NCBI RefSeq assembly: GCF_900177665.1
Contig: NZ_FXAW01000001.1
Location: 434,001-498,000 of the forward strand
Direction: 5' to 3'
DNA: 64,000 bases
DNA from: Marivirga sericea
GTDB taxonomy: Bacteria; Bacteroidota; Bacteroidia; Cytophagales; Cyclobacteriaceae
The notes under the pieces: generated by a model
Databases searched by the model: none
Told to the model about the DNA's origin: nothing
The model's input: the letters and a program-made list of their open reading frames with translations, nothing else
Part shown: one piece after another, positions 40,701 to 62,331 of the stretch
Numbering within the stretch: the first letter of the stretch is position 1
How the letters are laid out: each line of letters opens with the position of its first letter
Translations under genes and position numbers: made by a program

Positions 40701-42555
40701 AATGGAGTTTTCCCTTGATCAAACCTATTGTGATATTACTATTGCAGAAAAAGATCTGGTTGCAATCAAGAATATGGAGCAATCAGAGTATAAGTCTCAT
40801 CCTTGCTACAAAAGCTTTAATTTAGAATCGTACATAGGAATTCCTTTCATTGTCCATGATGAAGTGCAAGGAACTCTTAATTTCTCTTCTGTTATGCCAA
40901 GAGAACGAGAGTTTTACTCTAGTGAAATTGAATTTATAAGATTATTAAGCAGGTGGGTGAATTCTGTGATGGAACGAAATACTTTCATAAAATCCTTAAA
41001 GATCGCTAAAAGCCAAGCAGAACAGGAAGGGCTTGCAAAAGAATCATTCCTAACCAATATGAGTCATGAAATCAGGACTCCATTAAATGGAATTATCGGC
41101 ATGATGCGTGAACTCCATAGAGAGGAGTTAACTAAAAAGCAATCCACTTATATTGATCGAGCTTCACGGGCTTCCCAACATTTGTTAGAAATTGTTAATA
41201 ATATTTTAGATATATCAAAAATCGAATCTGGAGAGTTGCTGTTAGAATCTAATGACTTTGAGATTGCGGTTATAATGAAGGATATAGCTGATATTTTGCA
41301 GTCTCCAGCAAAAGAAAATCTGAATACGATTGATGTTCAAATTGCGCCAGAAGTCAATAAATACTTTAGAGGGGATGCTTTCAGGTTAAGACAAATATTA
41401 TTAAATCTAGCAGGAAATTCTGTTAAATTTACAAAGGAAGGACTTATAACACTATCCGTAAACCTGCTAAGTGATAATAGCAATCATCAGTTACTTGAAT
41501 TACAAGTGACTGATACGGGGATCGGTATTGATCGAGATTATCTAAATAGAATATTTGATAAATTCCAACAAGAAGATGCTTCTATTAGTAGAAAATATGG
41601 AGGCACAGGCTTGGGAATGTTGATCACCAAGGAGCTTGTTGAATTAATGGGGGGAGATATTGCCATAACAAGTGAAAAGGGGAAGGGTACTAAGGTCGAT
41701 ATTCACTTGCGTTTAGAAAAAGCTGCAAAAGGTAATTACAAACCGGTCGAAAAGAGGGCTGCGACACAAGTCAAAGACATAGCACCTATCAAGATATTAT
41801 TAGTTGAAGATAATGAGATTAATAGACTCGTAGCGGCAAATAGCTTAAAACTCATTCCTTGTGAATTAACGGAAGCCACTAACGGATTAGAGGCGATAGA
41901 TATTCTTAAAGCCCAGTCCTTCGACTTGATCCTTATGGATGTTCAAATGCCAGTGATGGATGGGATCGAAGCTACTAAGATCATAAGAAATGAATTGAAA
42001 TTAAATACACCAATTATTGCGCTTTCAGCAAATGCTTTCAAATCAGAAATAGATCTTACTTTTAGTATTGGAATGAACGATTACATCTCTAAACCATATC
42101 AGGAAGAAGACTTTTTACAAAAGGTAATAGAAATAGCTGGAATGAGCAGTAATTTATCTATTGTAGCTGATTCAGTAGAAGAAGTTGAAACAACTAAAGA
42201 GACTGATTTGGATTCATTATATAGTCTTAAGGTGATAGAAGATATGAGTAGAGGGAATCATGAATTTGTAGTAAGGATGTGTAATATCTTCATTCAATCG
42301 GTTCAAGAAAGCAAATCTGAGATTAGGGAAGCACTTGACAGCGAGGATTTCAGCCGAATAGCGAAGCTAGTTCATCGAATAAAGCCTAGTATCTTAAATA
42401 TGAAGATTAACAGTGTGACGAATGATATAGAATTTTTTGAGGGGTTAGATAAAAATGCAAATCCTGATGAAGTCTCTTTTCGCTTAGATAATTTCTTTTC
42501 GGTTTTAGATCGTGTTATTAAAGACCTTGAATTGAAAAGCCATAATTCCAAATAA
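37744..42555 (+). CDS. Multi-PAS/GAF hybrid histidine kinase with receiver and HPt domains
   Basis: This 1603-residue cytoplasmic protein has no evident membrane helix. Reading order: PAS (about 12-120), GAF (about 150-300), five further PAS units (about 305-915), a second GAF (about 930-1080), HisKA with His1108 in MSHEIRTPLNG, HATPase with N box Asn1225 and G1 DTGIGI from 1257, receiver with Asp1399, and HPt with His1544 in VHRIKPSI. Phosphate could therefore pass from H1108 to D1399 to H1544 and then to a separate regulator. The NtrC-type regulator 12 bases upstream and the receiver protein at 47463 are likely recipients. The input signal is unknown; the two GAF domains suggest an internal small-molecule signal. 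Confidence 0.93.
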   Translation: MNSQFKDNLFSNNQLFKTIIENGSDLVLVSDLEMNIIYANPSAIEKLGFNPKKLKSIIPDSEYDAFLKFFNLKQENLLSTDSNFRTLFQSKAGKLVNIHFNVSVYSVDDKQNYFIFDCRIIDNLVAKENSVKRMQSILKGTATASLKLNEKGSFEEKIQESLIEIGDVLKPQRITFYRNQSDQTSICTIKHFEWSFDKGVKTFKSEPISIDGLVHVLPEIKEGEPRYFYKQEVDERFHFLFEKDGTSILFLPIYIQDQFAAFIIFENCKDGDSWSENELSVLKSYGTSVQSAIVRGRYQEKLQEVASLTSLNPNPVIRLDRSGNILFRNKASEHIKSPSIINSLEDLASEHWIDYICSNIDEETTILNFEITENRRYFSVRAILSEDRNYINVYLADISSQKVAEKSIIRATESLSLFKNLINYSSDAVQVTLENGDLFYLNQEAANNLSIDLADFGKYSILDIENRFQNIEQWKGHVEELKKLQNYTAEGIHINQQTGKEFPVEVSVKYLKLNDRGFVVASVRDISERKKKENQLRLQEEKYRNIISNMNLGLLEVDKKENIVYANKSFESISGYSLDELLGKNASKIFLTKDLAKVMRKKNLSRLREETDSYEIQAIDKNGKVRWWLISGAPNYNDKGEIIGSIGIHLDITEEKNSEVKLAEERQRLEYVIRGTNLGTWELDIYRQQRTLAEGWNHILGGRSKKDLTFSQTEWENCIHSEDLPLEIESLRKHLEGETDFFQVQVRMKHKKGHWVWIELTGKILSNLNTDTQRIYGTAKEITEAKNLEYELKANAEKFQSIYDLNPVGIALNDFKTGDFIEVNDALVKSTGYTREEILSLDYFDLTPKEYAENEQEQLSYLEKTRKYGPYEKEYISKSGQRYPVLLNGVIFTDQNNREVILSTVQDISERKRYENQLKTQRSALRSLNEINSLAHLSLDEQLNEALKLGAEFLGMELGIISEIDLDSREYTITHQYSNEGQLEAGMEFSLDQTYCDITIAEKDLVAIKNMEQSEYKSHPCYKSFNLESYIGIPFIVHDEVQGTLNFSSVMPREREFYSSEIEFIRLLSRWVNSVMERNTFIKSLKIAKSQAEQEGLAKESFLTNMSHEIRTPLNGIIGMMRELHREELTKKQSTYIDRASRASQHLLEIVNNILDISKIESGELLLESNDFEIAVIMKDIADILQSPAKENLNTIDVQIAPEVNKYFRGDAFRLRQILLNLAGNSVKFTKEGLITLSVNLLSDNSNHQLLELQVTDTGIGIDRDYLNRIFDKFQQEDASISRKYGGTGLGMLITKELVELMGGDIAITSEKGKGTKVDIHLRLEKAAKGNYKPVEKRAATQVKDIAPIKILLVEDNEINRLVAANSLKLIPCELTEATNGLEAIDILKAQSFDLILMDVQMPVMDGIEATKIIRNELKLNTPIIALSANAFKSEIDLTFSIGMNDYISKPYQEEDFLQKVIEIAGMSSNLSIVADSVEEVETTKETDLDSLYSLKVIEDMSRGNHEFVVRMCNIFIQSVQESKSEIREALDSEDFSRIAKLVHRIKPSILNMKINSVTNDIEFFEGLDKNANPDEVSFRLDNFFSVLDRVIKDLELKSHNSK

Positions 42556-42560
42556 TGGAA
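42546..42560. promoter_or_regulatory. Palindrome TTCCA-N5-TGGAA (site A), candidate upstream activator site
   Basis: TTCCAAATAATGGAA overlaps the stop codon of the hybrid kinase gene (TAA 42553-42555), about 90 bases before the sigma-54-type promoter at 42632. A degenerate second copy with a good right half (TGGAA at 42576-42580) lies 20 bases downstream. The same palindrome precedes three other transcription units in the window. Confidence 0.65.
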
Positions 42561-42631
42561 ATTTGATCTAATATTTGGAATGGATAGTAGATCAAAAGCG
42601 ATCTAGGATTATATTTTAAAGGTTTTCTCAA

Positions 42632-42648
42632 TTGGTATATCACTTGCA
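42632..42648 (+). promoter_or_regulatory. Sigma-54 promoter of the T9SS cargo gene
   Basis: TTGGTATATCACTTGCA has GG and GC exactly ten bases apart and the TTGCA -12 box, the strict sigma-54 layout. The predicted start of transcription near 42659 leaves a leader of about 18 bases before the ATG at 42677. Confidence 0.75.
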
Positions 42649-42676
42649 GTGAGGTGAAAATCCAAATTAGAGAACT

Positions 42677-45600
42677 ATGAAAAGATTTTTCCTATTTTTA
42701 TTGTTGCTTGGACTTACAACTGTTAAGAGTTTAGCTACTGGTGAACCAAGTACATACTTTAACATTTATGTTCCTTCCAACAATGATGCGGTCAAAAGAA
42801 ACGTAGCGTTGATCGTTACCGCTATTCAGGATAGTACTTATTTTTCCATTGTCGATGATGATATGGATGGAGATAGTGATGATACAGTAGAAGGCTGGTT
42901 GAATGCTGGTCAGTCCTATATTTTGTATATAAAAGATAATGGAATTAATGATGATGCGAAATATGCATCCGGTGGCGAATTGAAATCTGATGGAGACTAT
43001 TTTACCATTCAAAGTTCGAAATTGGTGTATGCATCTATGTCTACTGATAGTGATTGGCAACATGATTTTGTAGCGGCTATCAATAAAAAATCTGTGGGAT
43101 TAAAATTTTATGTGTACGCACCAAAAATATCCTCCTCAAACCGAGATTTGAATGTTTTTGCGTACGAGGATAATACGAGTATTACTATTTCCAGAATTTC
43201 TCAATCTTCAACTTTTAGCACGGGTTATACTAATGTTGATGTTAACCAATCAGAAATTGTAGTTCAAAAGACATTAAATGTCGGGGAAGATCTGATTCAC
43301 TATTATACTGAAGGCCGAGATGTAATGTCTTCCGGAGAGACCTACATGATTGAATCTAATAAGCCGGTAAGTTTGCAATATGGGGCTTTGTGGGGTAATT
43401 CACGTGATGGAGGTGCTTATGTGCCAAGTTTTCAAGGAAGTTCTTCTGGAGATTTGTTTTATTTTGCTGTTCCGTACCAGGCTAATGGAGAGCAGGAGAT
43501 AAGAATGGTTTCTTGGGATGATAATAATGAGGTTCAATTCGACAGATTTGATAAAGGTAGTTGGATTAGCATGGGTAGCTGGAATATTTCAAAATTTGGG
43601 ACAGCAGATTGGGTGGGGAAGGAAAACGATAATAGTACTTTTGCTACTGTTTTTAGAGTTAAATGTACCGAAGGGAAATCCATTTCAGTTTTCGAAGCAA
43701 ACTGGATGGAAACGGGAAGTATTGGAACCTCGGATATGGCCAGTATGATGAGTTCTTCAAACGGCTCCTCTTCAGGTAAAGAGTTTTTGGCCTACATCGC
43801 ACCTCCAGGAAACCAAAAAAATGTTAGAGATCCATTTACAGGAAATACCTTTGGAGGTAGTTTTTCACATTTATTTATTTTCGCTGGTAATACAAATGCT
43901 ACAGTTTCTGTAGTGGATGCTAAAACAGGAGGTGAACTGTTTTCTAAATCAGTTTCAGTTGATTCAGCCCGATATGCAGATATTAAAATAAGTGAAGCAG
44001 AATGGAAGTCAATCTATAATGGGACCGGATACAATAGTGGTTCAGACCGACCTTATTTGTTAATCAATTCAGATCAGAATATATCCGTGCTCAATACAAA
44101 TTTCAATGACAACTGGATGACGTATTTTGGGTCTTCTTTAAAGCCAGCTTTTGATCAAAGCATAGTTTCTAATACAAGTACAGCAATTCCAGGAGATACT
44201 TCTGTTCTTGTTTCTGAAATAATATTAGATCCATCCGTAACAGTGCAGAATCCTGATGTGAAAGTAGTAATTAGCTCTGGTGCCACAGCGGTTAGAAGTT
44301 CTTTAACTAATACTACTACTCAAGTATCTGTTGAAGGGGATATAGTTAGGACTAATGAAAACACTACTATAACCTTCGACAGCGTACCAGATATAACTAC
44401 GCAGGATAAGTATGAGGTGAATACTGAGATTGTTTTATCTACTTCATACAATGATGGAACACCCATTGAAGATAATACGGTGATAAGTGTTGAAACAGTA
44501 GTTTCGGGAGAAATTGACGGCTATGTGCAAGAAAGTGTCGTATCCCAGGGTATCGAAAATGAAACTTCTAACACATCCGCTTTAGTTTTCAATACTTGCA
44601 GTGTGGCAGAAATTGAAAATAAACTGTGGGATACTTGGAATAGTTCATGGGTTGATTTTAATAATGATGGTTGGGATGATCTATGGGTGAATTCTAAATC
44701 AACTGATCAGGTCAATTATTTGTACCAAAATGTTGACGGAGTTTTGAGTGAGTTTCAGGGAACTGGTCAGTTTTTTAATGAGAAAGCAAAGACCGTCACT
44801 ACAGTTTGGGGCGATATTAATAACGATGGCTATCCAGATCCATTTGTAGTCAATGCTACTGAAAAAGGTAGTATGCTTTACTTGAATTACGGCAATGGTA
44901 ATTTTGAGCCATTGACTAATTCAGGTATTTATGTTCATCCTAAGTATTTTCATGGCGCAAGTTTTGCAGACTTTGATAATGATGGATTTTTAGATTTATT
45001 GATTACCAATTTCTTTCAAACAGAATTTCATCAGTTATATCGCAATAATGGCGATATGTCTTTTACCCTATTGAATGATAACGCTATTGCAACGGTTTCT
45101 GCAAGAGCAACTGCGCCTGTTTTAGCAGACTATAATAATGATGGATTAGTAGATGTTTTTATTCCAAATGGAAACAATGAGGCCAACAGTTTATTCAAAA
45201 ATCTTGGCAATTTTACTTTCGAAAAAGTATCTGAGTCAGGATTAGAAAATGAATTGAAGAACTCTGTCGGTGCGAGTTGGGGTGATTTCGATCGTGACGG
45301 AGATTTTGATTTATTTGTTACCAATTCTTCTGATCAATTCAATGACCTTTATCTCAATAACGGAGATGACACCTTCACGAGAGATTCACAAAGCTTACTA
45401 TCAAATCAGAAAGGACATAGCCATGGCGCTATATGGAAAGACGTTGAGAATGACGGAGACTTAGATTTATTAGTTAACAACGATCAGGGGAGAAATTTCC
45501 TTTACATCAACGATGGAACTGGCGATTTCTATCAAAATGTTGACGAGACTATTAGTGGTGATATTGGAAATGCTTACGGAGTAGCCACTTCTGATTACAA

Positions 45601-47296
45601 CAATGATGGTGCTGCAGACTTTTTCATTTCTACCCATGGAAATCAAGCGAATAGGTTATTCTGTAATCAAAACAATTCCAACCACTGGATTCAAATAAAA
45701 CTAGTCGGTAATAAAAGTAATAAGAAGGGGATTGGAGCCGTAGTTAAAGTCAAATCAGGCGGACAATGGCAAATGCAACAAGTACAACCGATCAGCGGCT
45801 TTGGCAGCCAGCATAGTTTAACTCAAACTTTCGGATTAGGAAATAATTCGCAGGCAGATTCGGTGCAGATAGTATGGCCTTCAGGATTAGTTCAAAACAT
45901 CGTTTCACCACTTCTGGATACATTACATGTGGTAGAAGAACCCGATGCAAACAGGATTATATTTGTTGTGTTTAATGATTCAAATAACGATGGTTTGTTA
46001 AATATCAATGAGGAGAGGATCAAAAATATAAACCTATCTATCAATCCGATCGGAAGAATAATAAGAACTAATGCAAACGGAAAAATTCAAACTAGTCTGC
46101 CTGCAGGAGAGTACGAAATAGCTATCGAAAATAGCACACTTTATCAACAAACGGTTCCGATTAGTTTTACAGTAAGTGGAGCGGTTTTAAGCGATGCTAT
46201 AGCGGTTCCCTTATCCGTTGTGACCTTGGGATTTGATTTGGACTTAGAAATTGTAAGAACGCCATTGCGAAGAGGCTTTTCTAATAATACTGTAGTGCAA
46301 GTCAGAAATAAAGGGAGTGTAGCGGCCGAGAATGTAGAGTTGCTAATGACTTACCCTAGTGATATCGTGATAAAAAACTCAAGTGAAACTTTACAAATAC
46401 CAGAGACCAGTGTGTATAGCGTAAATCTAGGAGATTTAGGTGCTGGAGATGTGTATACAATGCAGATAGAGGACAGCGTAGGTTTAAATCTAAGAACAGG
46501 CGATTTTGTTAACTTTTCAAGTGAAGTGTCGGCGGTAGGCTTAGATCTTGATTTGACCAATAATACAGTCCAGGAGGATATTGAAATAGTAGGAGCTATT
46601 GATCCTAATGATTTATTAGTAAGTCCTAAAGGATATGGCGATAAAGGATGGATTTCCAAAGAGCAGTGGCTTACTTTTACTATCCGATTTCAAAATGTTG
46701 GGAGTTATTTTGCCACTTTTGTGAGACTACAATCAAGCTTAGATCAAGAGTTAGATCTTAGTACTTTCGAATTTATTGCAAGTAGTCATGAAGCGGATAT
46801 CACACTAACACAAGATAGGAATTTAGAAGTGTTTTATGATCATATTATGCTTCCGTCAACTGAGGTTAATGAACTGGAGAGTCATGGCTTCTTTAAATTT
46901 AGAATAAAGCCAAAATATGATTTGCAGGGAGGTGAACAGATAGAAACTGATGCTGATATCGTCTTTGATTATGAAGATGCTATACAAACTAATAGAATTC
47001 AACACTCGATAAAGTTTCAATTAGATTCTGACCAGGTGAAATTAAGTGTTTACCCGAATCCTAGCATTGATCAGATTAAAGTGAACACTCATAAAAACTA
47101 TTTCACTGTTGAAAATCTTCCTGCGATTGCATATTACAGTATAAGAGATCTATCCGGTACCATGGTGATGGAGAAAAGCAATCTGAAAGAAGATCGGCTT
47201 CAAGTATCGATTACGGGCTTGAAGAATGGCTTGTACATGATAGAAATATTGGATGAATCAGGGCAGAGATTTAATGCCCGATTTATCAAAAGATAA
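42677..47296 (+). CDS. Giant exported T9SS cargo protein with FG-GAP and UnbV domains
   Basis: This 1539-residue protein has a signal peptide (FFLFLLLLGLTTVKSLA). Residues about 25-500 resemble an IgGFc-binding-type N-terminal region (FNIYVPSNNDAVKRNVALIVTA; sections on tissue-contact strands). A linker follows to about 640. FG-GAP/VCBS-like calcium repeats span about 650-1005 (for example DFNNDGWDDLWVN and DFDNDGFLDLLITN). An ASPIC/UnbV domain follows (about 1010-1080, GIGAVVKVKSGG ... QVQPISGFGSQHS), then adhesin-like strands and a C-terminal T9SS sorting domain starting at LSVYPNPSIDQI (about 1455) and ending GLYMIEILDESGQRFNARFIKR. It should be secreted and surface-bound, as adhesin or matrix protein. 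The family of the first part is uncertain. Confidence 0.82.
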   Translation: MKRFFLFLLLLGLTTVKSLATGEPSTYFNIYVPSNNDAVKRNVALIVTAIQDSTYFSIVDDDMDGDSDDTVEGWLNAGQSYILYIKDNGINDDAKYASGGELKSDGDYFTIQSSKLVYASMSTDSDWQHDFVAAINKKSVGLKFYVYAPKISSSNRDLNVFAYEDNTSITISRISQSSTFSTGYTNVDVNQSEIVVQKTLNVGEDLIHYYTEGRDVMSSGETYMIESNKPVSLQYGALWGNSRDGGAYVPSFQGSSSGDLFYFAVPYQANGEQEIRMVSWDDNNEVQFDRFDKGSWISMGSWNISKFGTADWVGKENDNSTFATVFRVKCTEGKSISVFEANWMETGSIGTSDMASMMSSSNGSSSGKEFLAYIAPPGNQKNVRDPFTGNTFGGSFSHLFIFAGNTNATVSVVDAKTGGELFSKSVSVDSARYADIKISEAEWKSIYNGTGYNSGSDRPYLLINSDQNISVLNTNFNDNWMTYFGSSLKPAFDQSIVSNTSTAIPGDTSVLVSEIILDPSVTVQNPDVKVVISSGATAVRSSLTNTTTQVSVEGDIVRTNENTTITFDSVPDITTQDKYEVNTEIVLSTSYNDGTPIEDNTVISVETVVSGEIDGYVQESVVSQGIENETSNTSALVFNTCSVAEIENKLWDTWNSSWVDFNNDGWDDLWVNSKSTDQVNYLYQNVDGVLSEFQGTGQFFNEKAKTVTTVWGDINNDGYPDPFVVNATEKGSMLYLNYGNGNFEPLTNSGIYVHPKYFHGASFADFDNDGFLDLLITNFFQTEFHQLYRNNGDMSFTLLNDNAIATVSARATAPVLADYNNDGLVDVFIPNGNNEANSLFKNLGNFTFEKVSESGLENELKNSVGASWGDFDRDGDFDLFVTNSSDQFNDLYLNNGDDTFTRDSQSLLSNQKGHSHGAIWKDVENDGDLDLLVNNDQGRNFLYINDGTGDFYQNVDETISGDIGNAYGVATSDYNNDGAADFFISTHGNQANRLFCNQNNSNHWIQIKLVGNKSNKKGIGAVVKVKSGGQWQMQQVQPISGFGSQHSLTQTFGLGNNSQADSVQIVWPSGLVQNIVSPLLDTLHVVEEPDANRIIFVVFNDSNNDGLLNINEERIKNINLSINPIGRIIRTNANGKIQTSLPAGEYEIAIENSTLYQQTVPISFTVSGAVLSDAIAVPLSVVTLGFDLDLEIVRTPLRRGFSNNTVVQVRNKGSVAAENVELLMTYPSDIVIKNSSETLQIPETSVYSVNLGDLGAGDVYTMQIEDSVGLNLRTGDFVNFSSEVSAVGLDLDLTNNTVQEDIEIVGAIDPNDLLVSPKGYGDKGWISKEQWLTFTIRFQNVGSYFATFVRLQSSLDQELDLSTFEFIASSHEADITLTQDRNLEVFYDHIMLPSTEVNELESHGFFKFRIKPKYDLQGGEQIETDADIVFDYEDAIQTNRIQHSIKFQLDSDQVKLSVYPNPSIDQIKVNTHKNYFTVENLPAIAYYSIRDLSGTMVMEKSNLKEDRLQVSITGLKNGLYMIEILDESGQRFNARFIKR

Positions 47297-47321
47297 CTCA
47301 TAGTAGTTTTGGTTGAATATG

Positions 47322-47360
47322 GAGAGGTTTTCCAAATATTGGAATTCCTCTCTTTTTTTT
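47322..47360 (+). terminator. Intrinsic terminator of the cargo gene, containing regulatory palindrome
   Basis: GAGAGG (47322-47327) pairs with CCTCTC (47347-47352), with the inner arms TTCCAA / TTGGAA extending the stem; a run of eight T follows. The inner arms are also the TTCCA-N5-TGGAA palindrome (site B). Confidence 0.85.
47330..47344. promoter_or_regulatory. Palindrome TTCCA-N5-TGGAA (site B)
   Basis: TTCCAAATATTGGAA, with six-base arms, sits inside the terminator stem, about 120 bases before the receiver gene at 47463. A possible sigma-54 element downstream (TTGG at 47417-47420, TTGTA at 47428-47432) has the GG-to-TG distance one base short, so the promoter of this unit is not settled. 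Confidence 0.5.
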
Positions 47361-47462
47361 GGACATATACCAAGATTAAATAATTGTAAAGCACTGAAAA
47401 TCAATGTGTAAGATTTTTGGATTGATTTTGTATAAGTATTATACATATAAAATAATAAGATT

Positions 47463-47897: not shown

Positions 47898-47898
47898 T

Positions 47899-48645: not shown

Positions 48646-48653
48646 CTAGAACT

Positions 48654-53171: not shown

Positions 53172-54463
53172 GGACCACTAGTCAAAATATCGACCATGAT
53201 ATTTTCTTCAAAAAGGTAAACCGTTTGCTTCTGGTCATCTTATTGTTGATGGTCGCTTGTTTTTTTACCTGGAGTGAAAACGTACTCATAACTAGAGCAA
53301 TTAAAGTAGTAGGTAGGATGGGAGTCCTGTTCGGCTCTTATTTAGTCTACAAAAAGATTATAGCTTATGGTGCTATAGATAATCTAAAGTGGCATAATGT
53401 CCCCTCCATATTTATGTACGTATTATACCTCTTGTTAGGCTTTGCTTCTTTTCTGTGGACAACTAACATTGGAGTTAGTGCTTTACAGTGGTTTATGACC
53501 ACTCAAACATTGGTGTTTTGCTACTTCTTCATCAAATGTCTGTATTTGTTAGATAAGTTTTTTCCTGAACATAAGATCCGTTTATTCAATCTTTTAGGAA
53601 ACGTATGTTTTGTCCTGATCACGATTTTTGTGGTAGGAATGTGGGTGAATCCTGACGTTTTTTTTCGCTATACCCATGGAGGAGAAGAGGCAAGGTTAGG
53701 AGGCTATATGATGAATCCGAATGAGCTAGGTATGTTGGCTGGAGTAGGGGTTGCGGGTCTGTTGTTTGATTTAAAAAGAGACCACAAAAAAGCCTGGACG
53801 ATTTTCAAATTATTGGTCTTGTTTTACGGGCTTTATGCCACAGGATCACGATCTTCCCTGATTGGAGCATTATTAATTATAGGCTTTCATGTAAAGCAGT
53901 CTTCAAATACAAAACTGAAAATTTTAATTATCACGGGTATGATTGTCGTTGCTCCTGTAGCGATATATAAAGTAGTACTTAAAGATGGTGATTCAAGTCG
54001 TATTGAAGAAGTGTTAAGTATGACAGGCAGGCTTCCATTTTGGACTGCTTTGATAAATGAAGGTTTGCCCAGAGAACCGATGCTTGGATTTGGCTTTATG
54101 AGAATTGACTACAAGGAATATTTTCAGAGTACGCATACATATCCTGGAAAAATGACCCACAATACCTTTTTACAAGTGCTAATGAATTTAGGGTTTGTCG
54201 GCATCACAATTGTCATTTTCCAAATGATATTCACCTTTAAAGGCATATCAAAAGAGCATAGTGAAAAAAGACTCATGTTGCTCAGCATGTTGATTCCATT
54301 AATCATTAATTCCTTAACAGAATTTGGGATATTCGGAGAGTCAAATTACGGTATTCTGTTTTACCAATTGATTATTTTATACATATCATTCAAGCAAAAC
54401 GATATTTTAACACCCGCTCAGAAATTATACTTGAAGAAGAGAAGACCTGATTTAGTTTACTAA
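53168..54463 (+). CDS. O-antigen ligase/polymerase-like membrane protein
   Basis: This 431-residue protein has about eleven hydrophobic segments. The segment RLGGYMMNPNELGMLAGVGVAGLL (about 177-200) and the arginine-bearing ATGSRSSLIGALLIIGF (about 223-239) match the Wzy_C / O-antigen ligase group, which polymerises or transfers lipid-linked glycan. The large loop with ARHxxxL-type features is replaced by THTYPGKMTHNTFLQ (about 320-334), where the conserved histidine HN lies. It closes the first exopolysaccharide unit. A 138-base gap follows. Confidence 0.85.
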   Translation: MRTTSQNIDHDIFFKKVNRLLLVILLLMVACFFTWSENVLITRAIKVVGRMGVLFGSYLVYKKIIAYGAIDNLKWHNVPSIFMYVLYLLLGFASFLWTTNIGVSALQWFMTTQTLVFCYFFIKCLYLLDKFFPEHKIRLFNLLGNVCFVLITIFVVGMWVNPDVFFRYTHGGEEARLGGYMMNPNELGMLAGVGVAGLLFDLKRDHKKAWTIFKLLVLFYGLYATGSRSSLIGALLIIGFHVKQSSNTKLKILIITGMIVVAPVAIYKVVLKDGDSSRIEEVLSMTGRLPFWTALINEGLPREPMLGFGFMRIDYKEYFQSTHTYPGKMTHNTFLQVLMNLGFVGITIVIFQMIFTFKGISKEHSEKRLMLLSMLIPLIINSLTEFGIFGESNYGILFYQLIILYISFKQNDILTPAQKLYLKKRRPDLVY

Positions 54464-54490
54464 ATCAAGAATCTCAAATCAAAACCCTTT

Positions 54491-54505
54491 TTCCATATTT
54501 TGGAA
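54491..54505. promoter_or_regulatory. Palindrome TTCCA-N5-TGGAA (site C)
   Basis: TTCCATATTTTGGAA, with arms extending to seven bases (54489-54507), lies in the gap after the ligase gene, about 70 bases before the sigma-54-like element at 54569. An additional half site TGGAA stands at 54536-54540. Confidence 0.6.
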
Positions 54506-54568
54506 AATACTCCTAGTGATTATTATGTAATGATCTGGAATTCAGGCCATTAATTTTTAGGTATCAAT

Positions 54569-54586
54569 TTGGCATATCACTTTTCA
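54569..54586 (+). promoter_or_regulatory. Sigma-54-like promoter with altered -12 box
   Basis: TTGGCATATCACTTTTCA shares 14 of its first 17 bases with the promoter at 42632, but has TT at the -12 GC position. If it works, transcription would begin near 54596. The 30-base distance from the -12 site to the ATG at 54614 equals that of the cargo gene. Confidence 0.4.
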
Positions 54587-54601
54587 TCTAAGAGAAATCA
54601 A

Positions 54602-56992
54602 ATGACCGAAAAGATGAAAAGTAATTCAGAGCATTTAAAAAGCTACTATGTTGTTAAGAATGGGGATGGAAGTATTAGATGGGTTTCACCTGTAAGTGCT
54701 AGTAAGCCATATTTTTTAGCATTCTATTCCATTACAAGTTTTAAATCTCTGTTAATCAGTATTTATTTCAAAGTGCTGTTCTTGTTTAAGATTCAAGCTC
54801 TTTTTATGAAGAAAGAAAAGTTAGATCTTAAGCTTGAAGAGCTAGATGTTTTCGGATTTGATGAACATGCTAATAATGAATGGTCTTTATTTATGGGGAC
54901 AATTGGTCCCAATAATAAACGATTACTCTACTTTAGAAATGCTAGTGATGAATTTGATTTTATTAAAATCCCCACTACAACTAATGCCAAAAGGATAATT
55001 GAAAACGAAGCAAGAGTTCTCTCGCATATGGAAAGAAATGGTGCTTCTAGTTTTAATTTCCCGAAAATGAAATTGTATCGGAATGAAAAACTATTGCTTT
55101 CTGATATATCAGGTGAAGCAAAGAGGTCAATGAACCTTAGTTCAGCTCATTTAAATGGCTTAGCGGAGATTGCAAAAATAGAGCTTGAGAAAGGATCAGA
55201 TGAGAACTATAATGATGTGATTAGTGCGATCGGGGGATTTATTGATGAGTTTTCCTCTGTAAATCAACAGAAATTTCCGAGTAGTATTGTCCGAAAAACA
55301 AAGGAATTGTTCCATATCTTAAGTAAATATGACTTAAATATGGAGTTTTCGCATGGCGACTTTACGCCCTGGAACACCTATTTAAATAACAATAAATTAG
55401 CAGTGTATGACTGGGAACTTGCAGATTACAGAACTAAGGGTTTTGACTTTTTCCATTTCATCGTTCAAAAGAGTATTCTCGTTGAACGAAAATCGTGGAA
55501 GGAAACTTATGAGGAAATTTCAGAAATTATAAAAAATGAAGAGTTTAAGAAGTTCTTGCCTGAAGTAGTAGAAAACCTTAATCTTTACCTATCTGCTTAT
55601 TTTCTGCAACAAATTTACGATTCATTCAAATTATATTCAGTTCAATTGAAATGGCATGAGCAAATATTGTGGATGATTGAATTTTGGGATTCAGCACTTT
55701 CTTTTGTTTTAAGTAAATTTATTGATAGCAGAACAGTATTGCTGAAGGATACTGTTGACTTTTTGTCCAATAAAAGATATGCAGCTGTTAAATTAGAAGA
55801 TCAGCCAATTGAAGAACTGAATATTTTCTCTGATGTAGACTGGTGTATAGAACGGAAAGATATAAAACCGATCCTGTCCTTTTTAAAGAAGCACCCATCA
55901 GTATTTAGCTACAGCATTCAAGTTAAAAGCTTCATGAGTTCTATTCAAATGGTCTTAAAAGATGGGTCTACTTTGAATTATGATTTCATTTGGAAGTTCA
56001 AAGTAAAAGCAATTGAGTTTTTAAGTGCTAAGCATGTCTTGGGTAATAGAGTGATAAACAGCTTTGGCGTTTATGTGTTTTCAGATCTGGATCTGGCTCG
56101 GTACATAAGTCTGTTCTATTTTCTAAATGGAGCTCATGTTCCGGAAAGATATCATAAATCGATCGAGTCTCTGAATAATTTAGAAACGGTGCTTGATATA
56201 GCACTGGTTCATCAAATTAGAAATAATATTAATTCTAACTTTAGTTTATCTGTAATATTAGATGATTACCCAGTAAATAAGAAATGGAGTGGCCTAGCCA
56301 ATAGGTTTTCCTATTTATGGGACACGATCCGTTCTTTCTTTGGGACGAAAGGATTCTTGGTGACTTTTAGTGGAGTTGATGGTGCTGGAAAGTCCACCAT
56401 AATTAATGCCTATCGAGCTATTTTAGAAAAGAAATACCGTAAAAAAGTAGTGGTTTTAAGACACAGACCGTCCGTACTTCCGATATTGAGCGTCTGGACT
56501 AAGGGCAAAAAGAAAGCGCATGAAGATGTTATTAATTCATTGCCACGACAAGGTGAAAATTCCAGTAGTTTATCTTCCATAATCAGGTTTGCTTACTACT
56601 ACACTGATTATTTGTTCGGTCAATTTTACATATATCTCCGATATATTTTAACAGGATATATCGTTCTATACGATCGCTATTATTTTGATTTCATAAATGA
56701 TAGCAAAAGAAGCAATATTGCCATTTCACCGGCTGTTGCTAAGCTGGGATATCATCTTCTTATGAAACCTAAATTCAACTTCTTTCTATATGCGGATCCA
56801 CATGTAATTAGATCAAGAAAACAGGAATTGGAAGAGTCAGATATACTATCCCTTACCTCTAAATATTTAGACTTGTTTATCGAATATGATAAAAGTAAGA
56901 AAGCTAATTATTTCAGTTTACATAATACTGAAATGGATAGGACTTTAGAAATTATTGAAAATCATACATTTAATTATTTATGGAAGGCCTAG
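54602..56992 (+). CDS. Three-domain protein: APH-like phosphotransferase, NTase-like, thymidylate-kinase-like
   Basis: The ATG at 54602 gives 796 residues; an ATG at 54614 is an alternative and fits the promoter distance better. Domain 1 (about 30-380) is a kinase-like phosphotransferase fold with SHGDFTPWN (catalytic Asp253, Asn258) and the metal-binding Asp270 in YDWE. Domain 2 (about 385-570) has FSDVDW (Asp411, Asp413) and a later YDFIW, resembling a nucleotidyltransferase. Domain 3 (about 580-796) is a thymidylate-kinase-like P-loop domain, GVDGAGKST (591-599) with YDRYYFDF further on. All three seem intact. It probably phosphorylates or activates a sugar for the polymer; this is inferred. 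Confidence 0.78.
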   Translation: MTEKMKSNSEHLKSYYVVKNGDGSIRWVSPVSASKPYFLAFYSITSFKSLLISIYFKVLFLFKIQALFMKKEKLDLKLEELDVFGFDEHANNEWSLFMGTIGPNNKRLLYFRNASDEFDFIKIPTTTNAKRIIENEARVLSHMERNGASSFNFPKMKLYRNEKLLLSDISGEAKRSMNLSSAHLNGLAEIAKIELEKGSDENYNDVISAIGGFIDEFSSVNQQKFPSSIVRKTKELFHILSKYDLNMEFSHGDFTPWNTYLNNNKLAVYDWELADYRTKGFDFFHFIVQKSILVERKSWKETYEEISEIIKNEEFKKFLPEVVENLNLYLSAYFLQQIYDSFKLYSVQLKWHEQILWMIEFWDSALSFVLSKFIDSRTVLLKDTVDFLSNKRYAAVKLEDQPIEELNIFSDVDWCIERKDIKPILSFLKKHPSVFSYSIQVKSFMSSIQMVLKDGSTLNYDFIWKFKVKAIEFLSAKHVLGNRVINSFGVYVFSDLDLARYISLFYFLNGAHVPERYHKSIESLNNLETVLDIALVHQIRNNINSNFSLSVILDDYPVNKKWSGLANRFSYLWDTIRSFFGTKGFLVTFSGVDGAGKSTIINAYRAILEKKYRKKVVVLRHRPSVLPILSVWTKGKKKAHEDVINSLPRQGENSSSLSSIIRFAYYYTDYLFGQFYIYLRYILTGYIVLYDRYYFDFINDSKRSNIAISPAVAKLGYHLLMKPKFNFFLYADPHVIRSRKQELEESDILSLTSKYLDLFIEYDKSKKANYFSLHNTEMDRTLEIIENHTFNYLWKA

Positions 56993-57672
56993 TTTCAAGT
57001 TTAGTTAAAAAGCGAAATCCTGATTTTCAATTTGACAGTCAGTTGAGCATTGGCATCTTTTTTTCCTTTTTTGTGCAAGCTGCATTTTCAGTTTTGAGAG
57101 GGTTCAAACTTTTACTAAAAGGCAAGATGCCAAAATATGCAATGCTTGGTAGAGGTGTAAGATTTCAGTATAGTAGCAAAATCTGTTTCGGAAAGTTTCT
57201 GAAAATAGGAGATGGAGCAAGATTGTCAGGACTTTCAAGAGATGGTTTAGTCATGGGAGATAACGTCAGTATTGGGGCTTACAGTAGCATTATAGTTTCT
57301 ACTTCTTTGAATGATTTAGGAAAGTCTATTAGAATCGGAAATAACGTAGGAATGGGAGAGTACGCATATTTAGGAGGTGCTGGAGGACTTGAGATAGGGG
57401 ACGCCTGCATAATTGGCCAATACTTTAGTTGTCATCCAGAGAATCATAATTTTAATGATACATCAGTAGAAATAAGAAAGCAGGGAGTCAATAGAAAAGG
57501 AATTAAAATTGGAGAGGATTGCTGGATTGGAAGTAAAGTAACAGTCCTGGATGGTGTAGAAATCGGAGATGGTTGCGTTATAGCTGCCGGAGCAGTAGTC
57601 ACTAAATCTTTTCCAAAAAACTCAATAATTGGTGGAGTACCTGCCAAATTATTAAAATCTAGAAAGCCATGA
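56980..57672 (+). CDS. Hexapeptide-repeat acyltransferase
   Basis: This 230-residue protein has a hydrophobic N-terminal patch (FFSFFVQAAFSVLRGF) and a left-handed beta helix of hexapeptide repeats, such as IGDGARLSGL, IGNNVGMGEYAYLGG and IGSKVTVLDGVEIGDGCVIAAGAVV (given in parts). The histidines HPENHNF (about 149-155) fit the CoA-dependent acetyltransferases of the WbbJ/maltose-acetyltransferase group. It probably acetylates the polysaccharide. It overlaps the three-domain gene by 13 bases and the next gene by 4. Confidence 0.9.
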   Translation: MEGLVSSLVKKRNPDFQFDSQLSIGIFFSFFVQAAFSVLRGFKLLLKGKMPKYAMLGRGVRFQYSSKICFGKFLKIGDGARLSGLSRDGLVMGDNVSIGAYSSIIVSTSLNDLGKSIRIGNNVGMGEYAYLGGAGGLEIGDACIIGQYFSCHPENHNFNDTSVEIRKQGVNRKGIKIGEDCWIGSKVTVLDGVEIGDGCVIAAGAVVTKSFPKNSIIGGVPAKLLKSRKP

Positions 57673-58892
57673 AAACAATATTAGCCACGGCATATGCTGT
57701 GAACCCATACAAAGGTTCGGAAGATGGAATGGGATGGAATATGATCCTGCAAATAGCTAAGAAAAACAAAGTAATAGCTATCACCAGAGAAAATAACCAG
57801 CCCCATATTGACAAATACATGGAGGAAAACCCTAGTGATTTATACAAAAATATAAGGTTTGCCTATTTTGATTTGCCCTACTGGATGCGCTTTTGGAAAA
57901 AAGGAGGGAGAGGGGCTATGCTTTATTATTGGATGTGGCAAAGAGGAATCGTTTCCTTTATTAGAAAGCAGAAGTTTCAGTACGATATTGTTCACAATCT
58001 CAATTTTCATAATGACTGGACTCCCAGTTATTTATGGAAACTTAAAAAACCCTTTGTGTGGGGTCCAGTAGGTCATCATCCACGGATTCCCTCTAAATAT
58101 TTGCAGTTTTATGACCGCAAGATTAAAGTGGTAGATGCTGCTACATGGTTGGTGAAAAAGACCTTTTGGAGATTATCTTCATCTCTCAGGGTAACTGCAA
58201 GAAAGGCAGATCATATTTTATGTATGAATTCATCGGTAGCAAAAGTTCTTCCTCATATCACCCACAAATCAACTGTGTTACCGTCTGTGGCTACACAAGA
58301 CTTCGGTTATCAAGAGAAATCTACAAATGGTTTTAATATCATTTCTGCTGGTAGACTAGTAGCGCTAAAAGGATTCGACTTGACCATCAAAGCTTTTGAA
58401 AATTTCTATCACAGGTTAAACCAAGAGGAGCAAGCAGCAGTAAAGCTTACGTTGGTGGGAAGCGGACCAGAAAAAGAAAGATACTGCAAAATGATTGCGA
58501 ATGCTGGGCTGACAGATAAGGTAGAAATTATCGCTTGGATAGATCGAAAAGACCTTCTCAATTTATATAGAGAATCATCTGTGTTTCTTTTCCCCTCGCA
58601 TGAAGGTGCTGGAATGGTAGTGGCAGAGGCCATGTCTTTTGGTTTGCCCGTTGTTTGCTTAGACAATGAAGGGCCAGGAGAATTTGTAGATCAAAGCTCG
58701 GGAATAGCAGTTAATCAAAGTAGTAGCTACAATGAAACCATTGAAGAATTAGCTGATGGATTATTGCACCTTTATAGAAAACCAGACTTCTATCAGAGAT
58801 TAAGCCAAGGAGCTAGAAAGAGATTTGAAAATAATTTTGATTGGGAGACTAGACATACAATATTAGATAAAGTCTATAAAAAGGTCTTATAA
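57669..58892 (+). CDS. Family 4 glycosyltransferase
   Basis: This 407-residue GT-B enzyme starts ILATAYAVNPYKGSEDGMGW. It has the VWGPVGHHPRIP segment (about 128-139), FNIISAGRLVALKGFD (about 223) and a donor-site stretch FPSHEGAGMVVAEAMSFGLPVV (about 312-333). It is probably a hexosyltransferase of the exopolysaccharide. Its stop shares one base with the next start (TAATG). Confidence 0.9.
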   Translation: MKTILATAYAVNPYKGSEDGMGWNMILQIAKKNKVIAITRENNQPHIDKYMEENPSDLYKNIRFAYFDLPYWMRFWKKGGRGAMLYYWMWQRGIVSFIRKQKFQYDIVHNLNFHNDWTPSYLWKLKKPFVWGPVGHHPRIPSKYLQFYDRKIKVVDAATWLVKKTFWRLSSSLRVTARKADHILCMNSSVAKVLPHITHKSTVLPSVATQDFGYQEKSTNGFNIISAGRLVALKGFDLTIKAFENFYHRLNQEEQAAVKLTLVGSGPEKERYCKMIANAGLTDKVEIIAWIDRKDLLNLYRESSVFLFPSHEGAGMVVAEAMSFGLPVVCLDNEGPGEFVDQSSGIAVNQSSSYNETIEELADGLLHLYRKPDFYQRLSQGARKRFENNFDWETRHTILDKVYKKVL

Positions 58893-59974
58893 TGAGGATT
58901 TTTGCAGCCCACTTATTTAACGATTATAGCGGTAGTCCGAAAGTACTCATGCAATTGATAAAATCATGGGTGGATGATAATCATGAAGTTCATTTGTATA
59001 CATGCTCTGGTCGAGAAGGCTTTTTATCTCATTTGAACGGAGTCCAGTATCATTTTTATTGGTACAGCTTATCTTCCAATCCTTATATTAGATTGCTTTT
59101 CCTTATGGCTAGTCAATTCATATTGATGGCTAAAATTTTAATGAAATTAAGAAAAGATGATCTAGTTTATGTGAATACCGCTCTACCTTTTGGTGCTGCT
59201 ATTGCTGCTAAAATGAAAGGAGCGAAGCTTGTCTACCATGTTCATGAAACTAGTCTGAAACCTGAAATATTCAAAAGTTTGGTCTTTGGCATTATGAAAT
59301 GGTCGGCTGATCATTTAGTTTTTGTATCTGATTATTTAGCAAAGGAAGAAGCAATCGGGAATATTCCTTATACCGTGATTCATAATGCAATACCTGAAGA
59401 CTTTTTGGAAGAATCCAGTTCTTATGAAAAGGAGGTAATAAATCAAGTAAAGCATGTTTTGATGGTTTGTTCACTTAAATGGTATAAGGGAGTAAATGAA
59501 TTCTTAGAATTAGCGAAAAGTAATCCACGTTTAGAATTTAGGTTGGTTTTGAATGCAGAGGAGCATGAAATTGCTGAGTATTTTTCAAAATTGAATGTAG
59601 CTGAAAACATAGAAATATTAAGCACGCAAACTAATCTACATCCTCATTATCAGTGGGCACATATAATAGTGAATCTTTCTCGTGCAGATGGGTGGATTGA
59701 AACTTTTGGATTGACTATTATCGAAGGGATGGCATATGGGCTGCCTGCCATGATTCCAACTGTTGGAGGAATTACTGAATTGGTAGTGGACGGAACCAAT
59801 GGCTATCAAGTAGATAGTAGAAATATAGATCGGTTGAATAATGCACTTTGCAAAATGACCGACCTGGACCATTACCAATACCTATCAAATATGGCTTCTC
59901 AACAGTTGAACTCATTCAGAGAGCTTGTATTTAAGCAGAAAAGCCGAGCATTATTGGAATTATTTTCCAAATAA
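58892..59974 (+). CDS. Family 4 glycosyltransferase
   Basis: This 360-residue enzyme has a GT-B fold with VYVNTALPFGAAIAAKM near residues 90-106 and LVYHVHETSLKPEIF (about 110-124). The donor-site region is SRADGWIETFGLTIIEGMAYGLPAMIP (about 263-289, given for position). It follows the previous glycosyltransferase without a gap and ends the second exopolysaccharide unit. The sugar added is unknown. Confidence 0.88.
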   Translation: MRIFAAHLFNDYSGSPKVLMQLIKSWVDDNHEVHLYTCSGREGFLSHLNGVQYHFYWYSLSSNPYIRLLFLMASQFILMAKILMKLRKDDLVYVNTALPFGAAIAAKMKGAKLVYHVHETSLKPEIFKSLVFGIMKWSADHLVFVSDYLAKEEAIGNIPYTVIHNAIPEDFLEESSSYEKEVINQVKHVLMVCSLKWYKGVNEFLELAKSNPRLEFRLVLNAEEHEIAEYFSKLNVAENIEILSTQTNLHPHYQWAHIIVNLSRADGWIETFGLTIIEGMAYGLPAMIPTVGGITELVVDGTNGYQVDSRNIDRLNNALCKMTDLDHYQYLSNMASQQLNSFRELVFKQKSRALLELFSK

Positions 59975-59979
59975 TGGAA
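59965..59979. promoter_or_regulatory. Palindrome TTCCA-N5-TGGAA (site D)
   Basis: TTCCAAATAATGGAA overlaps the stop codon of the glycosyltransferase gene (TAA 59972-59974). The 18 bases TTCCAAATAATGGAAATT are identical to those at site A, including the position of the stop codon. It precedes the GG-N10-GC element at 60032 by about 60 bases. Confidence 0.65.
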
Positions 59980-60031
59980 ATTCAGGCTTTGGATTCATGT
60001 GTAACTAACTAATAATCAATTGAATAAGATA

Positions 60032-60048
60032 TTGGTATGATTTGAGCC
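60032..60048 (+). promoter_or_regulatory. Sigma-54-type promoter of the galE unit
   Basis: TTGGTATGATTTGAGCC has GG (60034-60035) and GC (60046-60047) exactly ten bases apart. The -12 box reads GAGC instead of TTGC. The -24 half TTGGTAT matches the promoter at 42632. The distance to the ATG at 60073 is 26 bases. Confidence 0.5.
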
Positions 60049-60072
60049 ATAGTTGAAATAAATAGTTCAAAT

Positions 60073-62327: not shown

Positions 62328-62331
62328 AACT

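Follow-up and report, generated by a model that had tools for sequence, protein, structure and literature searches.

A palindrome and sigma-54-type promoters before four surface-glycan units of Marivirga sericea suggest a local regulon of one NtrC-type regulator

Organisation of the locus

The window, i.e. the whole stretch of 64,000 nucleotides of the Marivirga sericea genome that was analysed, carries the genes of an NtrC-type response regulator (REG) and of a hybrid histidine kinase (HHK), followed by CARGO and by the RR, KIN3 and galE units (Table 1). Judging by their gene content, these four units appear to build the surface sugar coat of the bacterium.

REG matches the Pfam families Response_reg (74.5 bits) and Sigma54_activat (227.1 bits), and its GAFTGA motif was read in the sequence. 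At its C-terminus no helix-turn-helix family was found at E <= 0.001, and the helix alignment has there a conserved VA-KL-IGKSTIYN stretch. Its joint best NCBIfam match, TIGR02915 (PrsR), falls below the curated cut-off (353.3 versus 502.6 bits), as does TIGR01818, NtrC proper (353.3 versus 558.6 bits), and neither assignment was retained. The sequence-only reading had regarded REG as the sole GAFTGA-type activator of the window, and indeed it holds the only PF00158 match there; the genome has ten such matches, five of them strong (REG included), and one RpoN gene was found in it. A haem-NO domain is absent from the Pfam listing of HHK, and no PF07700 (H-NOX) match was found in this genome.

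The sorting domain of CARGO scores 35.5 bits for Por_Secre_tail (cut-off 27) and 28.8 for TIGR04183 (cut-off 23); a PEP-CTERM tail was ruled out, the tail being of the type IX sorting kind. As for KIN3, the exact -24/-12 element at 54557..54574 makes ATG 54602 a likelier start than TTG 54569.

Table 1. Features of the REG locus (window positions)
Feature	Position	Strand	Sequence	Description
REG	36379..37731	+		NtrC-type response regulator: receiver, sigma-54 AAA+ with GAFTGA, C-terminal helix IGKSTIYNLIK
HHK	37744..42555	+		Hybrid histidine kinase: several PAS, GAF, HisKA, HATPase, receiver, sub-cut-off Hpt (Pfam)
Palindrome 1	42546..42560		TTCCAAATAATGGAA	Before CARGO, overlapping HHK stop codon (stop ends 42555)
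-24/-12 before CARGO	42631..42648	+	ATTGGTATATCACTTGCA	GG 42634, GC 42646; leave-one-out score 11.6
CARGO	42677..47296	+		1539 aa FG-GAP/DUF7619 protein, type IX sorting tail (Pfam, NCBIfam above cut-off)
Terminator-like hairpin	47321..47360	+		After CARGO, palindrome 2 at apex, then eight T
Palindrome 2	47330..47344		TTCCAAATATTGGAA	Before RR; RR slot also used in other loci
IHF-like box, RR promoter	47395..47411	+	AATCAATGTGTAA (core)	Core at 47399-47411, 8/9 positions, beginning 20 bases before GG
-24/-12-like before RR	47416..47433	+	TTTGGATTGATTTTGTAT	GG 47419, weak -12; score 8.0
RR unit	47463..54463	+		RR (lone receiver), Wza-like export, Wzz/Wzc-like, Wzy-like polymerase (ORFs, Pfam); flippase-like (no Pfam match; named by eye), glycosyltransferase-like (by eye)
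Palindrome 3	54491..54505		TTCCATATTTTGGAA	Before KIN3
IHF-like box, KIN3 promoter	54540..54552	+	ATTCAGGCCATTA	8/9 positions
-24/-12 before KIN3	54557..54574	+	TTAGGTATCAATTTGGCA	Exact; GG 54560, GC 54572; score 14.1
KIN3 unit	54569..59974	+		KIN3 kinase-like (sub-cut-off Pfam only), hexapeptide transferase; two glycosyltransferase-like proteins (named by eye)
Palindrome 4	59965..59979		TTCCAAATAATGGAA	Before galE-like gene, overlapping preceding stop (ends 59974)
IHF-like box, galE promoter	60014..60026	+	AATCAATTGAATA	8/9 positions
-24/-12 before galE unit	60031..60048	+	ATTGGTATGATTTGAGCC	GG 60034, GC 60046; score 11.0
galE unit	60073..63423	+		galE-like epimerase, GT4 glycosyltransferase (sub-cut-off rhamnosyltransferase match), WecA-like transferase

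The palindrome in the window and in the genome

Pattern matching of the window recovered TTCCA-N5-TGGAA exactly at the four positions at which it had been claimed. They had also been described as lying in the gaps before the units, which holds fully for the sites at 47330 and 54491, both wholly intergenic, and in part for those at 42546 and 59965, each of which begins inside the gene before it and runs across the stop codon. The earlier chance figure of 0.06 per 64 kb proved too low, about 0.15-0.3 being expected from the genome copy counts; four palindromes within 17.4 kb are far above this expectation as well.

The 4.74 Mb genome holds 24 exact copies, versus 11 of a reversed control pattern. 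The check that had been proposed, whether the palindrome is common at random places, was run genome-wide: random copies do occur, but 19 of the 20 copies elsewhere in the genome are within ORFs of 100 aa or longer. A fifth intergenic palindrome (C17:1222583), preceding a 459 aa ORF with no Pfam family and with no good -24 element, was taken as chance.

Association of the palindrome with one regulator clade

Comparison of 75 regulator loci, read over lengths of 3.9 to 64 kb, yielded 91 palindromes, 3 of them in sister-clade loci, and TTCCA/TGGAA ranked first of the 1024 inverted 5-mers. When loci were classed as N/K- or R-helix by the residue in one alignment column of the recognition helix (L141, counted under R, comes from a damaged reading), 68 intergenic sites fell in 28 of the 37 N/K-helix loci and 2 sites in 2 of the 37 R-helix loci. 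Nine N/K loci are negative in this interval count; five of them (G045a, G221, G179, G173 and G195) have exact copies elsewhere, either beyond the interval, within called ORFs or on a different contig. The exact palindrome is absent from the other four, G059, G060, G115 and L142, and G115 carries TTCCAAAATTTGGAC before RR.

On the regulator tree, where the palindrome tally was entered by hand, the regulators beside a palindrome nearly all group together (clade support 0.97), and for 33 of the 35 members of this clade an exact site lies close to the regulator or to the KIN3 piece of the same genome; sister clades rarely have one beside them. The same four slots recur in other genera: that of palindrome 1 is kept in 6 of the 7 further loci, among those fetched, in which CARGO follows REG-HHK, and 15 of the 18 KIN3-bearing genomes of the family have an exact palindrome at the cluster. 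An H-NOX gene adjoins the regulator in 16 of the 75 loci, all of the TTCCA clade, and HNOBA is present in two tested kinases from such loci.

Two loci, G059 and G314, share the cluster and differ in the recognition helix; there TCTC-N5-GAGA takes the place of the palindrome, standing ahead of RR, GT4 and one further gene in G059 and ahead of GT4 in G314. The helix that goes with this second form is of the IGKSTLYKMIKRG type. One genome, G028, has homologues of CARGO, GT4 and KIN3, with neither palindrome kind nor a regulator in the 36 kb read, the TCTC form having been sought over 16.5 kb of it.

The palindrome might be the operator of another DNA-binding protein, the regulator clade being merely a travelling neighbour. 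Linkage could indeed arise through co-inheritance, regulator binding is a prediction from sequence, and the genome encodes four further strong activators. In addition, locus G294 pairs an exact palindrome before GT4, in a truncated cluster, with an R-helix regulator, which was the only match at E <= 1e-120 and lies some 40 kb off; this cluster may be a remnant, and since it looks like one, it leaves the odds of the main explanation unchanged. Three observations speak against another protein. A second kind of locus, devoid of the polysaccharide cluster, has palindromes before the regulator gene, H-NOX genes and RR, so that the regulator is the common partner of the sites; the site changes where the recognition helix changes; and no exact copy falls within the 10-11 kb of sequence examined around each of the four remaining strong activators. 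We therefore regard this alternative as unlikely.

Sigma-54-type elements downstream of the palindromes

For promoter analysis, 41 loci (sister clades and G060) were removed and 81 of the remaining 88 palindromes were kept by a gene-nearby rule; of these, 17 before the regulator gene, one x131 site and the first copy of each of three tandem pairs were dropped, leaving 60 sites in 25 loci. A blind motif search downstream of these returned TTTGGCAT-N5-TTKG, i.e. the -24/-12 element, with a score of 257 versus 58-62 in three shuffles, and the element is present at 60/60 sites. The -24 GG occurs in all 60 promoters and the -12 half is loose, strict GG-N10-GC being found in 14 and GG-N10-G in 48. 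Three of those 14 are in the window, where three of the four promoters are strict; the RR promoter (47330 site) has GG-N9-G only and the lowest score of the four. The GG-N10-GC elements previously placed at 42632 and 60032 were both recovered, with positions that agree to within two bases. Before KIN3 an element does exist, but the near copy proposed at 54569 is not the best one, the GG of an exact GG-N10-GC standing 11 bases before the GG of that near copy.

Leave-one-out matrices returned to the same position in 60/60 cases, with an AUC of 0.911 versus 165 natural upstream regions. At a score of at least 8 the same matrix retrieved 54/60 sites versus 27/165 control regions, some of which may be genuine sigma-54 promoters. 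Palindrome-element spacings are confined to 48-53, 59-65, 69-73 and 79-82, about one helical turn apart; we make only a moderate claim of phasing, because the tests assume independent draws and merging inherited spacings leaves 16 values (p 0.003). Scanning the window for the sigma-54 consensus, with 3 mismatches allowed, stayed at chance level (55 found versus 51.8 expected) and was discarded, the palindrome-anchored blind search having performed better. Sigma-70 matches in 42400-60200 were about as many as in shuffles (68 versus 67.0). Overall, the -24 GG gives the sigma-54 reading good support, and the -12 element gives it only loose support.

REG could instead bind the palindrome as a repressor, or act with a sigma factor other than sigma-54, leaving the GG element incidental. 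This would fit the weak -12 half and the 17 sites that precede the regulator's own gene, which by eye overlie a seemingly ordinary promoter, suggesting autorepression. An incidental element is hard to reconcile with a GG in every target promoter, clustered spacing and leave-one-out recovery, and REG retains GAFTGA; we hold this alternative to be quite improbable.

IHF-like box and hairpin

The IHF consensus is WATCAA-N4-TTR, and it was scored here allowing A or G at the sixth position. In polysaccharide-type promoters a blind motif search found an IHF-like box at a fixed distance, and at least 8/9 positions match in 28 of 39 of them (shuffle mean 5.7). In the window three of the four promoters have the box, that of CARGO being the one without. 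It was also sought in the second kind of promoter, with 1/21 found versus 2.1 in shuffles; the blind motif of that kind, a terminator-like stem common to close relatives, was set aside. As for an IHF heterodimer to occupy the box, the genome has one PF00216 match, PF00216 being the one HU-like family searched.

Palindromes acting as RNA hairpins, i.e. terminators or attenuators separating operons, were also considered. A strong hairpin with palindrome 2 at its tip and eight T behind it was predicted by folding 47312-47368 as RNA (-21.2 kcal/mol, z -4.6), and the counterparts of palindrome 2 in G008 and G309 resemble long hairpins by eye. The consensus terminator scan does not list this hairpin, and over 42400-60200 it gave slightly more hits than shuffles (13 versus 9.5). 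Against a hairpin as the general function, the other three window sites fold more weakly (z -2.0 to -2.7) with no T run, the lower stems vary among species by eye while TTCCA/TGGAA is kept, and palindromes also stand before the regulator gene, all of which makes it very unlikely. Dual use as enhancer and hairpin is possible at site 2.

Chance clustering of an AT-rich inverted repeat has in its favour the background copies in the genome and is negligible, being already contradicted by the slot recurrence in other genera, besides the 19/20 genic copies, the contrast between N/K and R loci and the first rank among 1024.

Proposed mechanism

The proposal of one local regulon under the regulator encoded at 36379 finds support in the clade-bound palindrome, the recurring slots and the site change linked to the helix; REG probably switches all four operons together. 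We put at roughly 0.85 the probability that the palindrome is the enhancer site of REG, activating four sigma-54 promoters with the aid of an IHF-like box for joint expression of surface protein and polysaccharide. In this model, a signal sensed by the adjoining kinase (37744) would lead to phosphorylation of REG, which would oligomerise on the palindrome, centred 59-93 bases upstream of the -24 GG, and from a fixed helix face would spend ATP in opening RNA polymerase-sigma-54 at the four promoters. Three of the four -24 elements have an IHF-like box shortly before them, whose probable role is to bend the DNA or to stabilise the complex. In this way a type IX surface protein would be expressed jointly with the enzymes for assembly and export of a surface polysaccharide. 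The sequences themselves show the sites and how they recur, the link to a single regulator clade, the spacing, the third box and the gene content; binding, phosphorelay, sigma-54 dependence, the role of the box, the signal and the product are our inference.

A broader and more speculative idea, which we rate as possible though not probable, is that TTCCA-type regulators form a transferable switch. A three-part promoter (enhancer palindrome on fixed faces of the helix, IHF-like box at a fixed distance, loose sigma-54 element) would couple matrix polysaccharide and type IX protein to interchangeable sensors, namely H-NOX for nitric oxide or oxygen, FIST, and PAS/GAF. The 15 bases between CARGO and RR would double as enhancer and terminator apex, and regulator binding could therefore also change read-through. 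H-NOX proteins signal with an associated histidine kinase; TTCCA-clade loci of relatives would share this arrangement, whereas the present genome has no H-NOX gene.

Relation to known systems

In the available part of its description, the PrsK/PrsR pair of the Proteobacterial PEP-CTERM/EpsH system is an NtrC-type response regulator with a kinase near polysaccharide genes. Its cis-site consists of an activator motif, sometimes repeated (motif 1 being a 17-nucleotide motif ending TTTACA), a spacer of mean 62.8 nucleotides (32-92) and a sigma-54 -24/-12 motif, and it serves genes for surface proteins that end in a sorting tail at the C-terminus (PMC1569441). The present locus resembles it in the regulator and kinase by polysaccharide genes, in the site-spacer-sigma-54 layout and in the sorting-tail target. 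It differs in that REG lies below the TIGR02915 cut-off and the CARGO tail is type IX, not PEP-CTERM; moreover, relative to PrsR as described in that part, the polysaccharide operons themselves carry sites, and the IHF-like box and clustered spacing are added.

According to the portions of the two further accounts consulted, pepA of Aquincola tertiaricarbonis is RpoN-dependent by experiment and tied to exopolysaccharide and floc formation, thus likewise linking a sorting-tail surface protein to exopolysaccharide, but it encodes a PEP-CTERM protein in a proteobacterium and the enhancer is only predicted there (PMC9850573). In Flavobacterium psychrophilum, of the same phylum, motif SM4 likewise represents sigma-54 -24/-12 promoters, one of which, tested by mutagenesis, precedes remFG-sprCDBF, the adhesin SprB being secreted by the type IX system; that account concerns other genes and, in the part seen, gives no activator binding site (PMC9723704). 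Nor was an activator binding site for a Bacteroidota sigma-54 regulator met in the literature searched, whose scope left most subscription journals outside.

The comparison suggests a counterpart, outside Proteobacteria, of the PrsR-PEP-CTERM logic, with one activator for a sorted surface protein and polysaccharide. The site, its probable regulator, the promoters and the natural helix and site changes together make the binding code directly testable, and, given the recurrent H-NOX neighbour, control of polysaccharide by nitric oxide or oxygen can be tested in relatives.

Palindrome Copies and Gene Layout in the Window

The TTCCA-N5-TGGAA palindrome, proposed in the sequence-only reading to mark four surface-glycan units, was exact at all four positions, and no further exact copy was found in the window (bases 434001–498000 of contig C17, genome 4.74 Mb). 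All four copies end 63–118 bases before the unit start given by ORF finding, and two of them overlap a stop codon. An XrtF exosortase family protein, above the NCBIfam cut-off, is encoded at 27629–28153, 8 kb upstream of the regulator gene REG; the two genes preceding it resemble, by eye, sugar O-acyltransferases.

Features of the putative regulon (window positions; GG, the GG of the −24 element; ATG, start codon following the implied transcription start)
Feature	Gene position	Palindrome	GG	ATG	Description
REG	36379–37731 (+)				NtrC-type response regulator, close upstream of the four units
HHK	37744–42555 (+)				Large hybrid histidine kinase, close upstream of the four units
CARGO unit		1, at 42546	42634	42677	1539-aa FG-GAP protein with type IX sorting tail
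RR (lone receiver) unit		2, at 47330	47419	47463	Receiver-Wza-Wzc-Wzx-Wzy; flippase named by eye
KIN3 unit		3, at 54491	54560	54602	First gene a kinase-like protein; some glycosyltransferases named by eye
galE unit		4, at 59965	60034	60073	galE-GT4 (glycosyltransferase)-WecA

The expectation of 0.06 copies per window understated the chance level roughly two- to fivefold, the whole genome holding 24 exact copies versus 11 of a reversed control pattern. As to whether the palindrome is simply common at random places, of the 20 copies elsewhere in the genome, 19 lie within ORFs of 100 aa or more and the last is intergenic. Four of the five copies not buried in an ORF thus fall within this 17.4 kb, and the clustering beyond chance holds despite the corrected expectation.

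Palindrome 2 forms the top of a hairpin (z −4.6) that precedes a run of eight T; this hairpin is absent from the output of a consensus terminator scan. Its counterparts in two relatives (G008, G309) are, by eye, long hairpins with different lower stems; TTCCA/TGGAA being the constant part, the comparison favours a DNA site that also serves as hairpin top, which would place the putative enhancer inside a terminator-like structure.

Putative Sigma-54-Type Promoters

A blind one-per-sequence motif search in the 115 bases downstream of each of 60 target palindromes returned TTTGGCAT-N5-TTKG, with GG in 60/60 and a score of 257 versus 58–62 in three shuffles. Leave-one-out matrices recovered the same position in all 60 cases, with an AUC of 0.911 when 165 natural upstream regions from sister-clade loci served as controls; a score of at least 8 was reached by 54/60 sites and 27/165 controls. 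Strict GG-N10-GC occurs in 14/60, including three of the window's sites, and the relaxed form GG-N10-G in 48/60; the −12 element is therefore loose. In the window, the implied transcription starts fall 14–19 bases before the ATG codons of the four units. The TTG at 54569, taken as the KIN3 start by ORF finding, lies upstream of the implied transcription start, and translation more probably begins at ATG 54602.

Measured from the end of the palindrome to the motif, the spacings group at 48–53 (29 sites), 59–65 (11), 69–73 (16) and 79–82 bases (4), with none between. A test for a 10–11-base period gave p = 0.0002 for all 60 sites; reduction to 32 distinct slot-distance pairs gave 0.0008, and merging to 16 values gave 0.003. 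The distance at the same slot shifts between species by about one or two turns. The pattern is consistent with an activator constrained to one face of the DNA helix relative to the polymerase.

An IHF-like sequence (at least 8/9 positions) was found in 28/39 polysaccharide-type promoters (shuffles: mean 5.7, maximum 11) and in one of the 21 other promoters (shuffles: 2.1). Upstream of GG in these 39, a blind search returned TGAwwATCARTnntTT (score 165 versus 46–52), starting 23–26 bases before GG in 31 and 34–35 in eight. Similar boxes are retained, by eye, in G059 and G314, where the palindrome differs; the box thus seems to track promoter type and not enhancer sequence. The search of the window's genome yielded one PF00216 (HU/IHF) gene, so binding at an IHF-like box would call for a homodimer or a different protein.

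Conservation among Relatives

Relatives were found by regulator protein search in 79 genomes and in 390 family genomes (203 at E ≤ 1e-120), and the neighbourhoods of 75 regulator loci, window counted, were read. The palindrome precedes CARGO, RR, KIN3 and galE or GT4 in several genera, with all four slots occupied in G008, G010, G227, G102 and G309 and part of them in G056, G045a, G335, G287, G337 and G173. KIN3 homologues occur in 18/390 family genomes (E ≤ 1e-50), 15 of which carry the exact palindrome at the cluster; of the others, G184 has a copy with a mismatch, G314 another palindrome and G028 none. The G028 loci (L283, L291) hold a CARGO-KIN3-GT4 type cluster with kinase-like neighbours, and neither the palindrome nor this regulator was found within the 36 kb read; the same glycan may be under different control there.

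In a second locus type, lacking the polysaccharide cluster, the palindrome precedes the regulator gene, an H-NOX gene and a lone receiver. Before the latter, one locus (L253 of G348, ~7640–7700) shows by eye a terminator-like hairpin, GTGCCT...AGGCAC plus a T run, between palindrome and −24 element, placing the enhancer beyond the apparent terminator of the previous operon; counterparts were seen by eye in G180, G213, G344, G358, G366 and G368. The sites at the regulator gene (e.g., L253, ~918) have a further TTC(C/T) half-site 19 bases on in 16/17 and overlie, by eye, an apparent ordinary promoter, which suggests autorepression. This locus type (L253, 8128–10833) also encodes a DUF4184-TPR fusion, whose C-terminal part resembles a barrel by eye, together with a divergent GT2 glycosyltransferase; these genes may form a further surface-glycan unit.

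In 16 loci of the regulator clade that has the palindrome, the regulator gene is followed by one for H-NOX, and in a 17th (G287) the H-NOX gene lies further away; none turned up by BLAST in the neighbourhoods retrieved for regulators of other clades. In G010, G102, G227 and G337 the H-NOX gene precedes the polysaccharide cluster, and in G056 FIST takes its place. Pfam assigned HNOB to three of three proteins tested and HNOBA to two of two kinases tested. H-NOX was not found in the window's genome, and HHK carries PAS and GAF sensor domains.

Probable Pairing of Palindrome and Regulator

Loci were classed by one recognition-helix column, IGKSTIY-N/K versus IGKSTIY-R. In a fixed interval, at least one intergenic palindrome was present in 28/37 N/K loci (68 sites), 2/37 R loci (2 sites) and 0/1 Q locus. 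TTCCA ranked first of 1024 inverted 5-mers with a 5-base spacer in N/K loci (68 versus 17 and 11 for the next), the second-ranked being the register between tandem palindrome copies. When 78 regulators were placed in a tree, with the palindrome tally entered by hand, those with the palindrome fell in one clade (support 0.97), with an exact copy at 33/35 leaves (exceptions G060, G115). Of the other 43 leaves, G028 and G045b each carry a single intergenic copy and L144 an intragenic one, and one of the G184 regulators has a copy ~1.2 kb upstream of it.

Strict pairing is challenged most clearly by G294, absent from the tree, where KIN3 is truncated and an exact palindrome precedes GT4, while the only regulator match at E ≤ 1e-120 is ~40 kb off and has an R helix (SSLYRYL). 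A palindrome left over from a lost switch would explain the mismatch.

Known Systems and Overall Reading

The nearest system in logic is, from the available portions of the literature, PrsK/PrsR-PEP-CTERM, which likewise combines a sorted surface protein with a polysaccharide neighbourhood and has an activator motif, a spacer averaging 62.8 bases and a −24/−12 motif (PMC1569441); pepA was shown to be RpoN-dependent in one species (PMC9850573). Membership of REG in PrsR was ruled out, as it scores below the PrsR cut-off and the surface protein tail differs from PEP-CTERM. Sigma-54 promoters are known in Flavobacterium psychrophilum (PMC9723704). The portions available of a cross-phylum survey of sigma-54 regulons, which concerns sigma-54 targets in general (PMC12316311), and of an earlier comparative study linking such targets to the cell exterior (PMC3162934) name no site for these regulators, and our literature search found no paper on this regulator or palindrome.

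The observation stands with small corrections, the proposal of one local regulon is well supported by comparison, and the palindrome is very probably (about 85%), judging from sequence comparison, an enhancer of REG at sigma-54-type promoters.

A natural change of helix and site was seen in two related cases, outside any survey: G059 and G314, sister leaves (support 1.00), share the polysaccharide cluster and the regulator helix IGKSTLYKMIKRG, and the exact TTCCA palindrome was not found in the stretches read. G059 (L079, L099) carries TCTC-N5-GAGA three times, upstream of RR, GT4 and a third gene at distances of 103–132 bases, TCTC being its commonest intergenic inverted 4-mer (3; others at most 1 among six listed); in G314 (L281, L288) it is exact before GT4 and, by eye, imperfect before RR. 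This related regulator type seems to use TCTC-N5-GAGA, which would be a first step towards a code linking helix and site throughout the regulator family.
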